Origin: Sporosarcina trichiuri
Lineage (GTDB): Bacteria > Bacillota > Bacilli > Bacillales_A > Planococcaceae
DNA length: 64,000 bases
Assembly: GCF_030406775.1 (NCBI RefSeq)
Contig: NZ_CP129119.1
Location: forward strand, 1,770,001-1,834,000
Reading direction: 5' to 3'
In this document: piece after piece, positions 10,834 through 21,207 of the stretch
How the letters are laid out: every line of letters starts with the position of its first letter
Position numbering within the stretch: position 1 is the stretch's first letter
Translations under genes and position numbers: made by a program
Notes under the pieces: generated by a model
What the model saw: the letters and a program-made list of their open reading frames with translations, nothing else
What the model was told of the DNA's origin: nothing
The model's database searches: none

Positions 10834-10983
10834 TTATGAGTTTGTGAAGTTATGAGCGCTTTGAGGAGGTTTATGAGCGATTTTGCTGGGTTATGATCAC
10901 TTTTGCGTTTTTATGATCACTTTCTGCGATTTATGATCACTTTCACAGTTTTATGATCATTTCCAGCAATTTATGATCACATC
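10834..10983 (+). repeat. 20-bp-period TTATGATC/TTATGAGC array H
   Basis: TTATGAGCGA at 10871 is followed by TTATGATCAC at 10891, 10911, 10931, TTATGATCAT at 10951 and TTATGATCAC at 10971, an exact 20-bp step. Less regular TTATGAG copies at 10834 and 10850 precede them. The other ten bases of each unit vary. The 570-bp gene-free stretch around it (10552-11116) otherwise shows only the promoter region at its left end and the terminator near 11.06 kb. Confidence 0.9.
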
Positions 10984-17774: not shown

Positions 17775-18966
17775 ATTGAACCAGGTGACCACGCTGTTCC
17801 TCGCGATGGCCCTTCTCCTTCTCGGGAACCTGCTCGTCCGTAAGACGAAGATCCTCCAGAAGTTCTGCATCCCCGCGCCGGTCGTCGGCGGGCTGCTGTT
17901 CGCAATACTTGCCACAATTTTGAAAACGACGGGCATCGTCTCCTTCACACTGGATACGTCGCTGCAGAATCTGTTCATGCTGACGTTCTTCGCGACAGTC
18001 GGTCTCGGGGCAAGCTTCGCCCTCATTAAATTGGGCGGCAAGCTGCTGATCATCTACTGGATCGCCTGTGCGTTCCTTGCACTCATGCAGAACGTCATCG
18101 GTGTGTCGATGTCGTACCTGTTCGACATCCATCCGCTGATCGGTATGATGGCGGGAGCTGTTTCGATGGAAGGCGGCCACGGCGGTGCGACCGCCTATGG
18201 GACAACCGTCGAAGCGATGGGCATCGACTCGGCATTCTCGATCGGAATCGCAGCTGCGACGTTCGGTCTCGTTGCCGGCGGCCTTGTCGGCGGTCCGCTC
18301 GTCAAGTTCCTTATCAACAAATACAATCTGAAATCCAATGAAGCCGCGGACACGAAAGAAACATACGAATACAATGCCGAGCTGCATGAGCCTGCCATTT
18401 CGGTCGACAACTTCACGATGCAGGCATTTTTGATCGTCGCTTCCATGGCGGGCGGTTCGCTGCTCGGCGAATTATTCGGCAGGCTGACAGACGGGATTGC
18501 ACTCCCGAATTATGTCGGCGCCATGTTCGCCGCCGTCATCATCCGGAATGTCATCGACCGGTTCAACGGCAATCTCATCCATATGAAGAGCATCACACTG
18601 ATCGGTGATGTCGCGCTCGGCATCTTCCTGTCGATGGCCCTCATGAGCATCAAGCTGTGGGAAGTCGCCGGCCTTGCACTGCCGCTTCTGGTCATCGTTT
18701 TCGTCCAGGTCGTCTTCCTCGTGCTGTTCGCGGTGTTCGTCCTGTTCCGCATCCTCGGCAAGAACTACGATGCCGCCGTCATGTGTGCCGGATTCGCCGG
18801 CCACGGACTCGGCGCGACGCCGAATGCGATGGCCAACATGGCCGCCGTCACGGAACGCTACGGTCCGTCCCGCACGGCGTACCTGATCGTCCCGATCGTC
18901 GGCGCGTTCCTGATCGACGTCGTCTCGATGCCGATCATCATCACTACCATCAATATATTCTCATGA
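17764..18966 (+). CDS. gltS: Sodium/glutamate symporter
   Basis: A 400-residue membrane protein with the GltS inverted repeat: SMEGGHGGATAYG in the first half and CAGFAGHGLGATPNAMANM in the second, the two re-entrant pore segments. It imports glutamate with sodium. The ATG at 17764 has GGAGG eight bases upstream inside the end of hutG. Coupling with hutG makes sense because HutG releases glutamate, or because the carrier may also move a glutamate derivative; the second option is speculative. A strong terminator follows. Confidence 0.94.
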   Translation: MTIELNQVTTLFLAMALLLLGNLLVRKTKILQKFCIPAPVVGGLLFAILATILKTTGIVSFTLDTSLQNLFMLTFFATVGLGASFALIKLGGKLLIIYWIACAFLALMQNVIGVSMSYLFDIHPLIGMMAGAVSMEGGHGGATAYGTTVEAMGIDSAFSIGIAAATFGLVAGGLVGGPLVKFLINKYNLKSNEAADTKETYEYNAELHEPAISVDNFTMQAFLIVASMAGGSLLGELFGRLTDGIALPNYVGAMFAAVIIRNVIDRFNGNLIHMKSITLIGDVALGIFLSMALMSIKLWEVAGLALPLLVIVFVQVVFLVLFAVFVLFRILGKNYDAAVMCAGFAGHGLGATPNAMANMAAVTERYGPSRTAYLIVPIVGAFLIDVVSMPIIITTINIFS

Positions 18967-18971
18967 CAGAT

Positions 18972-19000
18972 CCCCGGCTTCCTGTGAAGCCGGGGTTTTT
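18972..19000 (+). terminator. Terminator of hutG-gltS
   Basis: CCCCGGCTTC and GAAGCCGGGG form a perfect 10-bp stem with a 4-nt loop, followed by TTTTT. Confidence 0.95.
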
Positions 19001-19030
19001 CCTGTCCGTCCGGCGGCTGCAGCCGGGAAA

Positions 19031-19136
19031 ATGATCATAAACTCTTCTTTCTGCTCATAAATCCCGGAAAGTGATCATAAATCCCGGTTTCCGCTCATAA
19101 ACCCCAGGAAGTGATCATAAATCCCGGTTTCCGCTC
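19031..19136 (+). repeat. 20-bp-period GATCATAA/GCTCATAA array I, left part
   Basis: GATCATAA at 19033, 19073 and 19113 alternates with GCTCATAA at 19053 and 19093, every 20 bp. A sixth unit begins at 19133 (GCTC) and is cut by the IS110-family element; its ATAA half resumes at 20907. It is the reverse-complement orientation of array H and directly follows the gltS terminator. Confidence 0.92.
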
Positions 19137-19511
19137 CCTCTTGAAACATTGATATACCAGGGGTTCACGGTGGTAAATGAGAGACAAAAAAATTTTTCTC
19201 TTCGATTCATGACCAGTTCCTATAATAAAAGTGAAAATATTGAAGGCCAAGCATACGCTACGCTGCCAAGGGTGGAGGTAATTTCCATCCCTGGCGGGAC
19301 TGGTATGCGATGCACTCTGGATCTCCGCGTTCCTTATACTGATGTACCCTCCCATGGCTCTTGGCGTCTAGGCGCTAACATTCCTTCGTCGGATCTAGTA
19401 ATAAGGCGGAGGCTGGCTATGCTCATAAGGGGACTCTGAGGTCCAATCGGAATTTCTTGCCTGCTTCTCCGTGTCATCCTGTTGTAGGTCTTACATTAGA
19501 AGGTACGTCGG
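19137..19511 (-). ncRNA. Candidate bridge RNA region of the IS110-family element
   Basis: This 375-bp stretch downstream of the recombinase gene has no convincing ORF and sits where IS1111-type members of the family encode their bridge RNA. It contains GCTCATAA (19421-19428), identical to the target unit, with TCCGC-like sequence on the RNA strand 10 nt further 3'. CTCTTG (19358-19363) repeats the left element end (19138-19143). AACATTCCT (19377-19385) gives an RNA segment able to pair over nine positions with the right end, one being G-U. Between the last two is GCG-N6-CGC, a possible small hairpin. Exact RNA ends are unknown. Confidence 0.5.
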
Positions 19512-20786
19512 TCAGCCTTGGGCCAGGGCAGGGATATCCTGTATCATACGTTGCGGATCAAATGCCCTGCGGTGTTTACACATACCGAAGAGAACATGGA
19601 GTAATTTCCGGCAGAGAACCACCATTGACTCTTTCTTCTTTAAAGGATTTTCAAGGCGTGTCGTGTAATACAGATGAAGCTGACGAAATGCTGGGTTGTG
19701 CTGAACCAATGGCAAGGTAACTCGATACAAAACAGAACGAAGACGCCGTCTGCCGCGCTTGGAGAGACGCTTCTGGCCCGTATGTTTCCCCGAAGAGCTT
19801 TCCCGAAGCATTAATCCCGCTAATTTCTCCAATTGGCGTGGATGCTTATAGTGGGTAAAGCTGCCGACTTCAGACAATAGATCGATAATAGTCGAGTCGG
19901 AAATTCCAGGCACAGAGTTTAAAATTTCATACTCATCGGTTGGCCGGATAATCGCCATCAAAGCGTCTTCCAACTCTGCCAGCTCCCGCTCTACCTGACG
20001 GAACCGACTGACAAGCGACTGAATCTCCAAGCGGGCAATCCGCTGGCCTTCAGACGCGCCGATGGTGTGCGACAACAGAGGGATCAGTTTCTTCACCTTG
20101 GCCATCTGGACAGAACGCAATCCGTCGGATTGGCGATAGAGACTACGCAAGTCATCCAAGGACTTCCCCTCGAAATCTGCAGGGAAAGGCGTGTAGGTCA
20201 GGACGGCCAATGCCATCTTGCCAAACGAGCCGAAAACCTTGCGGAACTCTGGAAAGTAGACATCCGTCCAGCGAATCAGCTTATTTTGCAGGGCAGTCCG
20301 TTCTTTGACCAAGCTATTGCGCAGCGTGGAGCCCACCCTAATATCTGCTTCATGATCCTTCAGGTGGCGCGGGTAGCTATACCGACCATCCTTCACAAGC
20401 TTAGCGATGACGATGGCATCTTTCTTGTCATTCTTGGTCTGGATGTTATCGTCCAGCTCCTTAGAACGCTTTACATGAAGTGTCTGAACAGCCACGAAGG
20501 GGATGTGCTGTTCGTGCAGGAATTGCCGCAAATTCAGGCCATAGTGGCCTGTCGGCTCGGCACCTACCAGCACATCGGTCTTGCCGAATTCCTTCATCGC
20601 GTTCTGGATCTCTGCCTGAAGAAAATCGAATCCTTGCCTGGACTGAAAGACCGGAAAAGGCTTTTTCAGCACAATGCCTCGATCGTTGACCATACAGGCG
20701 TAGTGCTTCTCCTTGGCGACATCGATACCAACTATCAAGGTTTGTTCTGTCACTTGCATGATTTTGTGATTTTGGGTATCATTCAT
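19512..20786 (-). CDS. IS110-family recombinase (transposase)
   Basis: A 424-residue enzyme, apparently intact. The RuvC-like DEDD quartet is visible as D22 (VGIDVAKEKH), E77 (VGAEPTGHYG), D120 and D123 (KNDKKDAIVIAKL). A central coiled-coil stretch (about 225-280) precedes the Transposase_20 domain with EILNSVPGISDSTI and the serine region RESSSGKHTGQKRLSKRG near 329-344. IS110 recombinases join element and target through an RNA that pairs with both. AAGGAGG precedes the ATG but lies in a predicted stem with CCTCCTGGTAT further upstream, which could limit expression. No frameshift or truncation. Confidence 0.95.
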   Translation of the reverse strand: MNDTQNHKIMQVTEQTLIVGIDVAKEKHYACMVNDRGIVLKKPFPVFQSRQGFDFLQAEIQNAMKEFGKTDVLVGAEPTGHYGLNLRQFLHEQHIPFVAVQTLHVKRSKELDDNIQTKNDKKDAIVIAKLVKDGRYSYPRHLKDHEADIRVGSTLRNSLVKERTALQNKLIRWTDVYFPEFRKVFGSFGKMALAVLTYTPFPADFEGKSLDDLRSLYRQSDGLRSVQMAKVKKLIPLLSHTIGASEGQRIARLEIQSLVSRFRQVERELAELEDALMAIIRPTDEYEILNSVPGISDSTIIDLLSEVGSFTHYKHPRQLEKLAGLMLRESSSGKHTGQKRLSKRGRRRLRSVLYRVTLPLVQHNPAFRQLHLYYTTRLENPLKKKESMVVLCRKLLHVLFGMCKHRRAFDPQRMIQDIPALAQG

Positions 20787-20807
20787 TTCGAGTCCTCCTT
20801 GGTATTT

Positions 20808-20868
20808 AGTTAGGGGTCATTTCGTCTAGGAACATGACACCCCCGAATCATACCAGGAGGGCTTTTTT
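20808..20868 (-). other. Nested inverted repeats in the recombinase 5' leader
   Basis: On the minus strand CCCTCCTGGTAT is complementary to ATACCAAGGAGG (one bulge) and, inside it, GGGGGTGTCAT is complementary to ATGACCCC. The outer stem covers the ribosome binding site of the recombinase gene. It could be a folding element that restrains translation or part of a structured left end. Confidence 0.5.
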
Positions 20869-20902
20869 GCGTGCAAGCCCTTTAAAAGTTCAAAACAGGA
20901 AT

Positions 20903-20950
20903 GCTCATAAACCGCAGAAAGTGATCACAAACAGGGCGAAAGCGCTCATA
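20903..20950 (+). repeat. 20-bp-period array I, right part after the insertion
   Basis: GCTCATAA (20903) is followed 20 bp later by GATCACAA (20923) and 21 bp later by GCTCATAA (20944). This is the continuation of the array cut at 19136. The 250 bp between here and the next gene contain a small terminator and otherwise nothing I recognise. Confidence 0.85.
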
Positions 20951-21032
20951 ACCGCCTGCCCTCATCCGTCCTGGCCCCATTGAATCCTCCCGCACAATTT
21001 GTCATACTGGAGATTCCCCCGATCACCACCAA

Positions 21033-21059
21033 GAAACCTTAAGGGGTTTCCCTTTTTTT
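21033..21059 (+). terminator. Small rho-independent terminator upstream of the GGDEF-EAL gene
   Basis: GAAACC (21033-21038) pairs with GGTTTC (21045-21050), followed by seven T residues (21053-21059). No gene ends just before it on the plus strand, so it may stop readthrough from the array/IS region or be part of a leader. Confidence 0.55.
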
Positions 21060-21207
21060 GCTTCCGTCGCTCCTATTTTCATCTATAAACAATCGGCAGC
21101 CCTTTACAATCCGCAGTTTCTGTCGATAAAAGCTGTAGACTGACGAAATGGGTAATTTACCATTTTTTCCAATCCTACTACTTCACAAAAGAAATGGCGG
21201 TTGCTGC

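Follow-up and report, generated by a model that had tools for sequence, protein, structure and literature searches.

The window analysed here, a stretch of 64,000 nucleotides from Sporosarcina trichiuri (assembly GCF_030406775.1, contig NZ_CP129119.1, positions 1,770,001 to 1,834,000), carries on its minus strand an IS110-family element of 1768 bp (19136..20903, without its core copies), the ends of which, read on that strand as CATTCCTG...CAAGAGGG, were placed from the flanks of its copies and of its relatives. Comparison of junctions puts a core dinucleotide, AG, on either side: the upstream core (20904..20905) is preceded by the target sequence GTTTATG, and the downstream core (19134..19135) is followed by CGGAA. 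Beyond the cores lies a host tandem repeat, the target array, which runs along 19033..19133 on the downstream side and 20906..20950 on the upstream side. At the orthologous locus of a genome of the same species (L152) this array is uninterrupted, and that genome gave no match to the transposase. The transposase gene (19512..20786, minus strand) leaves 376 nt of non-coding DNA downstream (19136-19511) and 117 nt upstream (20787-20903).

The transposase, 424 aa in length, joins an N-terminal DEDD RuvC-like domain to a C-terminal Transposase_20 domain with its serine, the domain pair of the IS110 family in the broad sense (DEDD_Tnp_IS110 and Transposase_20; Pfam PF01548 at 110.6 bits and PF02371 at 78.7 bits). 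It scores 217.6 bits against the NCBIfam model NF033542, "IS110 family RNA-guided transposase," for which the cut-off is 140, and it gives weak matches to IS621 (8wt6, E 1.2e-9) and ISCro4 (9t56, E 9.1e-9). All 60 aligned rows share residues D22, E77, D120, D123, and S332; membership in the family suggests that these are catalytic.

Four identical copies of the element are found in the genome with a 1767-bp query, and all four share one insertion point, TTTATGAG|CGGAA: GTTTATG (three copies) or CTTTATG (one), with AG, stands before the element, and AG-CGGAA follows it. The DNA beyond the repeat unit is different at all four sites. The target of the element is a dispersed tandem repeat, TTTATG-AG-CGGAA, of which the pattern TTTATGAGCGGAA has 55 exact copies in this genome, against none for the reversed pattern. 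When junctions were compared over copies and relatives, no target duplication beyond the short core was seen; in relatives inserted in a hairpin repeat, described below, left cores are GAG or CAG and right cores GAG, with AG alone common to both. The core of IS621 likewise consists of two bases. At its downstream junction, the single copy in genome G210 (L043/L005) carries additional bases (GAGGGAGGGAG) that the other lined-up copies do not show.

The host repeat is intergenic, has a 20-bp period, and occurs in the window at 10870-10978 as well as at 19033-19133 and 20906-20950; it is also present in other genomes of the genus. Its arrays mix TTTATGAGCGGAA-like and TTTATGATCA-like units. Exact copies of TTTATGATCA number 187 in G000, 199 in G226, 183 in G199, and 12 in G210, and those of TTTATGAGCG number 400 in G210 and 118 in G000.

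The original prediction placed guide segments of a bridge RNA in the 3′ non-coding part of the element, and its coordinates are correct throughout: GCTCATAA at 19421-19428, CTCTTG at 19358-19363 and again at 19138-19143, and AACATTCCT at 19377-19385. An alignment of 46 rows, together with pair counts, now extends these segments to a predicted RNA body that runs from closing stem to closing stem (19309..19478, minus strand, as are all parts that follow). From its 5′ side, the structure on the 46 rows passes through the closing stem and the stem of the target loop to the right guide, then to a hairpin and the left guide, and finally to the long stem with the donor loop. The closing stem (helix 1) pairs GATGACAC (19471..19478) with GTGCATC (19309..19315) in 98.8% of cells, and the target-loop stem (helix 2) pairs GCAGGC (19459..19464) with GCCAGC (19412..19417) in 86.2%. 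Within the target loop lie the right target guide, RNA AATTCCG (19448..19454), complementary to the CGGAA right of the core; a hairpin of three pairs (GGACC...GAGTCC, 19431..19444; helix 3), paired in 100% of cells; and the left target guide, RNA CTTATGAG (19422..19429), whose TTATGAG, with the next C, is identical to the target. A long stem (helices 4-5), CTCCGCCTTATT (19400..19411) with ATAAGG...GCGGAG (19323..19337), is paired in 98.6-99.1% of cells and precedes the donor loop. There the guide for the upstream end of the element (AGGAATGTT in the RNA, 19377..19385) is separated by the hairpin GCGCCTAGACGC (19364..19375; helix 7, paired in 100% of cells) from a guide, RNA CAAGAG (19358..19363), that equals the element's downstream end at 19138-19143. 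In the 46 rows the donor loop reads AGGAATG(TT), a GCG/CGC hairpin, and CAAGAG; AGGAATGT of the donor guide is kept in 45 of the 46, and CATTCC is likewise kept at the listed element ends. The nine-base donor pairing that had been proposed could be traced by eye between AGGAAUGUU, the RNA of AACATTCCT, and AGCATTCCT at the end near the transposase; it amounts to nine pairs, a G.U pair and the AG core included, and the GCG-N6-CGC hairpin expected between the donor guides is helix 7. The right target guide (AATTCCG, 19448-19454 in plus-strand coordinates) was absent from that prediction.

Taken by itself, the sequence of the window is suggestive only. When the 374 nt at 19138-19511 are shuffled by dinucleotides, a match of 8 or more to a 15-nt target, on either strand, arises in 134 of 2000 cases, so that such a match is no rarity; the segment 19320-19480 folded alone, with the closing stem cut, does no better than shuffles (z +0.76); and a scan of 19100-20950 showed promoter-like sites at chance level (2, with 1.7 expected) and nothing resembling a terminator. 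Less easily had by chance is the donor pair GGAATG...AAGAG, which arises in 2 of 2000 shuffles. An Rfam search of 18900-21100 returned nothing up to E 1, a result that is uninformative for an uncatalogued RNA. We hold the guide matches to be real because of covariation over relatives.

The RNA structure was evaluated on the 46 aligned rows, which include the window and are hand-picked representatives of 151 loci, with L008 and L011 left out. RNAalifold paired the target-loop stem otherwise, and its version was replaced by the GCAGGC/GCCAGC stem seen by eye; one helix inside the donor loop was left out of the tested structure. Cells are paired in 97.0% of cases, compared with 94.4% in shuffles, and changes on both sides are seen at 15 of the 35 pairs, compared with 3.8 in shuffles; none of 500 shuffles reached either value. 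When the structure is slid by one to three columns, pairing falls to 22-40%, a comparison that favours the tested structure, since part of it was picked by eye from those very sequences. Of all the helices, the target-loop stem is the loosest: two of its six pairs fail in 26 and 11 of the 46 rows, respectively. Five of the six have changes on both sides, as does one of three pairs in the donor-loop hairpin.

Matches to the transposase at E ≤0.001, many of them distant, occur in 147 of 261 genomes of the family, its own included. From named genomes came 37 loci, and 80 further stretches were fetched, among which L117 is without its downstream part and L141 is cut by a contig end; altogether there were 151 loci. 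Insertion points were taken from element copies within genomes. The non-coding regions of the relatives align, with a mean column identity of 74%. Both target guides are among the most variable parts of the RNA, and they match the flanks; the remaining variable parts comprise the loops of the hairpins, an insertion within the target hairpin, and the tail at the 3′ end. For counting, the 151 loci were reduced to 87, then to 67 distinct sites and 33 guide sets; the 64 loci left out comprise 18 below 45% identity, eight without a left end, four without a right end, five without an anchor for the left guide, and 29 without one for the right guide. The left guide agrees with its own flank at 4.92 of six non-core bases, compared with 3.26 (sd 0.17) under permutation of the guide sets, and the right guide at 4.14, compared with 3.69 (sd 0.11); neither value was reached in 2000 permutations of the 33 guide sets, a procedure that ignores relatedness. 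Within the class of elements inserted in Shine-Dalgarno sequences (24 guide sets), the left guide still follows the flank (4.74 versus 4.14 permuted, 0 of 2000), while the right guide shows no such dependence on the individual flank (3.92 versus 3.88, 659 of 2000 permutations).

The guides themselves make the correspondence plain. Elements with the left guides AAAGGAG, TATAGGAG, TAAGGGAG, and similar sequences have such flanks; those with CGGGGCAG, CGGAGCAG, or TGAAGCAG are flanked by ACTAACGGGGCAG and similar sequences; and ATCGGGAG and TCCCGGAG are the left guides of further elements. On the other side of the core, TTCCG faces AG-CGGAA, ACTAAA or ACTAAC faces AG-TTTAGT or AG-GTTAGT, and GCGAGAC faces AG-TCTCGC. 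Covariation over homologous elements in different targets, which the original prediction had named as its check, thus supports the guides: the segment GCTCATAA, matched to the target in a single sequence, belongs to a guide that follows the insertion site from relative to relative, and the covariation of structure and of guides with targets together bears out a bridge RNA in the 3′ non-coding part. Relatives that sit in other targets and keep GCTCATAA, named there as the refuting case, were looked for and did not occur. TTATGAG is present in two of the 33 guide sets, those of the window and of its 82%-identical relative, both in the same repeat; the remaining sets have AAAGGAG, CGGGGCAG, ATCGGGAG, TCCCGGAG, and similar guides.

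The 82%-identical relative is in Sporosarcina sp. NCCP-2716, and a genome of the window's genus has an 82% relative with the same flanks. The left guide of the 82%-identical relative is that of the window, and its right guide is AAAAACG, the complement of CGTTTTT. The variant TTTATGAGCGTTTTT has 43 copies in the relative's genome and one in the window's, and TTTATGAGCGGAA has 17 and 55, respectively (the two patterns are 15 and 13 bases long). The right guide follows the repeat variant of the host, AATTCCG in the window and AAAAACG in the relative, although the relative's own right flank, AG-GGAGCGCTTTC, is an imperfect match with extra bases.

We are confident that positions 19478-19309 (minus strand) encode the bridge RNA, or seekRNA, of an IS110-family element and that this RNA guides insertion into TTTATG-AG-CGGAA. 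In the target loop, the left guide TTATGAG would pair with the bottom strand and the right guide AATTCCG with the top strand, around AG, while the guides of the donor loop would pair with the joined ends of the element, CAAGAGGG-AG-CATTCCT, in an excised circle. The DEDD/serine transposase, bound to the RNA, would then recombine circle and target at AG, so that the element would enter TTTATG-AG-CGGAA repeats in one orientation. Transcription, RNA binding, the circle intermediate, and strand exchange are presumed here by analogy with work on ISEc11, ISEc21, and IS621, and we infer that the element is expressed and active.

Covariation supports the element as an RNA-guided member of the IS110 family in the broad sense, with a predicted non-coding RNA that carries target and donor guides. 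The alternative that retains most plausibility, if still an unlikely one, accepts the bridge RNA and holds the element to be IS1111 proper, as described for ISEc11. The original prediction had called the layout IS1111-like, and as regards the position of the RNA and the order of the guides the description stands: the longer non-coding region is downstream, and AATTCCG, the guide complementary to the top strand, lies 5′ of TTATGAG, the one that pairs with the bottom strand. The same order is described for IS1111 elements and the opposite one for ISEc21 (PMC11187229), and the IS1111 RNA is downstream of the transposase (PMC11187229; PMC11208160). A profile of the clade also scores IS4321 somewhat above ISEc21 (56.3 versus 33.4 bits), although with a single sequence the order is reversed (25.1 and 31.7). 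The subterminal inverted repeats of IS1111, usually 11-13 bp as described for the group, were not found: no such repeat stands above shuffles in 11 of 11 elements (best scores 3-5, equalled or bettered by 66-200 of 200 shuffles). When exact runs of at least 8 bp were sought at both element ends, none was found in five of five clade elements (no run at all in one and runs of 8-10 bp away from the two ends in four), whereas the same search recovers an 11-bp run near the ends of IS4321. The proteins differ as well, the transposase here having 424 aa and the motif GL-L----SG where IS1111 transposases have 330-350 aa and GL-P----S(T)G (PMC11187229). The motif is present in 74 of 76 rows (GLMLRESSSG in the window; two rows lack a match to the pattern), while IS4321 has GLVPRQYSTG and ISEc21, an outside reference, GVSPVPVSSG. 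On inverted repeats, transposase length, and motif, we set IS1111 proper aside as unlikely. No named IS1111 element in plasmids was among the 60 of 3202 matches listed with ISEc21 as bait.

With the seekRNA elements of the IS1111 group (ISEc11, ISPa11, and ISKpn4; Siddiquee et al. 2024, PMC11187229) the element shares the downstream non-coding region and the guide order, and like ISPa11, which targets the dispersed extragenic repeat REP, it addresses a dispersed repeat, albeit a different one and without subterminal inverted repeats that we could find. With the bridge RNA elements IS621, ISCro4, and ISEc21 (Durrant et al. 2024, PMC11208160) it shares the DEDD and Transposase_20 domains and an RNA with target and donor loops, and with IS621 again a dispersed repeat as target, REP in that case; unlike theirs, its bridge RNA is downstream rather than upstream, and its guide order is the reverse of that in ISEc21 (PMC11187229). 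IS110-type elements with a downstream region are mentioned as exceptions in PMC11187229, some having such regions, no or short inverted repeats, and, in one subgroup, 395-455 aa, all of which resembles what we see. The clade may belong with these elements, possibly its nearest described grouping; the sections on the exceptions give neither guide order nor targets, both of which are worked out here. The bridge RNA is of a known kind; what is new is the combination of layout features and the existence of relatives addressed to Shine-Dalgarno sequences.

It is very improbable that the four copies spread by homologous recombination between repeat arrays instead of by guided transposition: the copies are identical and the arrays alike, as such exchange would predict, but the flanks outside the repeat unit are different at all four sites, and relatives obey the same junction rule in unlike targets. 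Least probable of all is that the matches arose by accident or are relics, that the 3′ region is a transcribed trailer, and that the transposase reads the repeat through protein-DNA contacts. This reading has the weak single-sequence statistics in its favour (the target match in 134 of 2000 shuffles, folding not above shuffles); against it stand guides that change with the target over relatives in a mostly constant RNA frame, and a structure that covaries.

Of 76 transposases placed on a tree, 60 have a target label, and the four classes of target require four changes along its branches; the least possible number is three, shuffled labels need 24.7 on average, and none of 200 shuffles was as low as four. 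The tree comes from a quick search, includes ISEc21 on a very long branch, and is used only for the clustering of target classes; labels were taken from left flanks, and L019, of the "other" class, is without a verified right end. The window's clade, two rows with support 100, lies among the elements inserted in Shine-Dalgarno sequences (SH-aLRT 94 and 93, not starred). The simplest reading, short of proof, is therefore that the window's clade switched from Shine-Dalgarno sequences to the tandem repeat. Two further kinds of target were seen: a hairpin repeat, and GC-rich sequences found repeatedly around copies of one and the same element. The hairpin repeat, ACTAACGGRGCAG, has 86, 77, 8, and 1 exact copies in four genomes and none in the window's. 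The sequences addressed by the clade seem to be ones that the host has in abundance.

The GC-rich targets belong to more distant relatives: L012-L015 and L018 (Thalassobacillus devorans), L134-L137 (G136), and L127-L129 (G198). Their sites, CCCGCGGGAG-TCTCGC, CCCGCTGGAG-TCGCCGCC, or TCCCGGAG-TCGATCG, recur around several copies, and the guides match them at least partly.

In G076 (L173, L174), the hairpin repeat CTTATTGAACTAACGGGGCAG-GTTAGTTCAATAAG, the target of relatives, separates small co-oriented ORFs at a spacing of 0.35-3.2 kb, usually with one ORF per interval and up to five; all 48 forward copies lie before 1.79 Mb and all 38 reverse copies after 2.11 Mb. The arrangement looks like a gene-cassette array. 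The core of the hairpin repeat, ACTAACGGGGCAG, occurs in published primers (PMC4403831; PMC6636781; PMC2440758) that are named Cat or CAT in two of these papers and serve the vector pRMC2 in one, and a partner primer in one of the papers contains TTAGTTCAACAA. Given those primers, a widely used cat (chloramphenicol resistance) marker may derive from such an array. A search of the literature with four sequence strings found one of them in nine papers and no paper on these repeats.

A large group of relatives has AAAGGAG as its guide and is inserted in Shine-Dalgarno sequences. The class counts 49 distinct sites. In 32 of them the core is followed, at a distance of 5-17 nt, by a start codon whose ORF has 50 codons or more, or 30 or more where it runs off the end of the stretch; the distance is 7-9 nt at 26 of these sites and 5-11 nt at 31, and no such ORF start is seen at the other 17 sites. 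An ORF start is seen at none of 31 hairpin-repeat sites, one of five sites of the window's class, and one of 13 others, the last (L045) being a Shine-Dalgarno site missed by the labelling. In flanking DNA, similar motifs stand 5-11 nt before an ORF start in 18 of 66 cases and arbitrary positions do so in 228 of 4720, compared with 31 of 49 insertion sites; the motif alone accounts for part of the enrichment at gene starts, not for all of it. Ten of the downstream ORFs, scanned with Pfam, were all above cut-off, which is not an unbiased rate, as they were picked from 26 (at least 90 codons) for recognisable N-termini; the matches include a threonyl-tRNA synthetase-like protein, an ABC ATPase, a sigma factor, EutC, and a glutaredoxin. 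The synthetase-like gene has matches in 86 of 121 genomes, and the best 12 of these 86 orthologous loci all have an uninterrupted AAAGGAG, 7-8 nt, and ATG. Once inserted, the fixed end of the element places GAGGGAG before the start codon, which we take to be a plausible ribosome-binding site.

At L121 the element stands between the start codon of the threonyl-tRNA synthetase-like gene and the leader, in which GGTGGAACCACGGG resembles a T-box. Four loci from Clostridia (L016, L017, L019, and L020; 38-39% identity) have left flanks TTAGAG, GAAGGAG, and TATGGAG before a AGCATTCC end and are perhaps Shine-Dalgarno targets too; their right ends were not recognised. In the open-access PMC literature we found no report of a Shine-Dalgarno target for IS110 or IS1111 elements, and the word "Shine" has no occurrence in PMC11187229 or PMC11208160.

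We think it probable, though with much less assurance than for the bridge RNA, that the Shine-Dalgarno sequence is the clade's commonest address, that the donor end GAGGG-AG rebuilds a ribosome-binding site upon insertion, and that the element in the window descends from such elements and was re-addressed to the tandem repeat. If so, the left guide AAAGGAG would make most gene starts lawful targets in principle, and a gene so entered would be severed from its leader yet remain translatable. The ribosome-binding site is a target class that we did not find in print, and insertion there may spare translation. The layout of these elements separates the downstream RNA and the IS1111 guide order from the inverted repeats of IS1111. 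In a larger context, nature has here repeated the re-addressing of a bridge RNA as if in a replicated experiment: the tree of a single clade with a largely constant RNA frame shows four changes of target class, with guides that fit each class.
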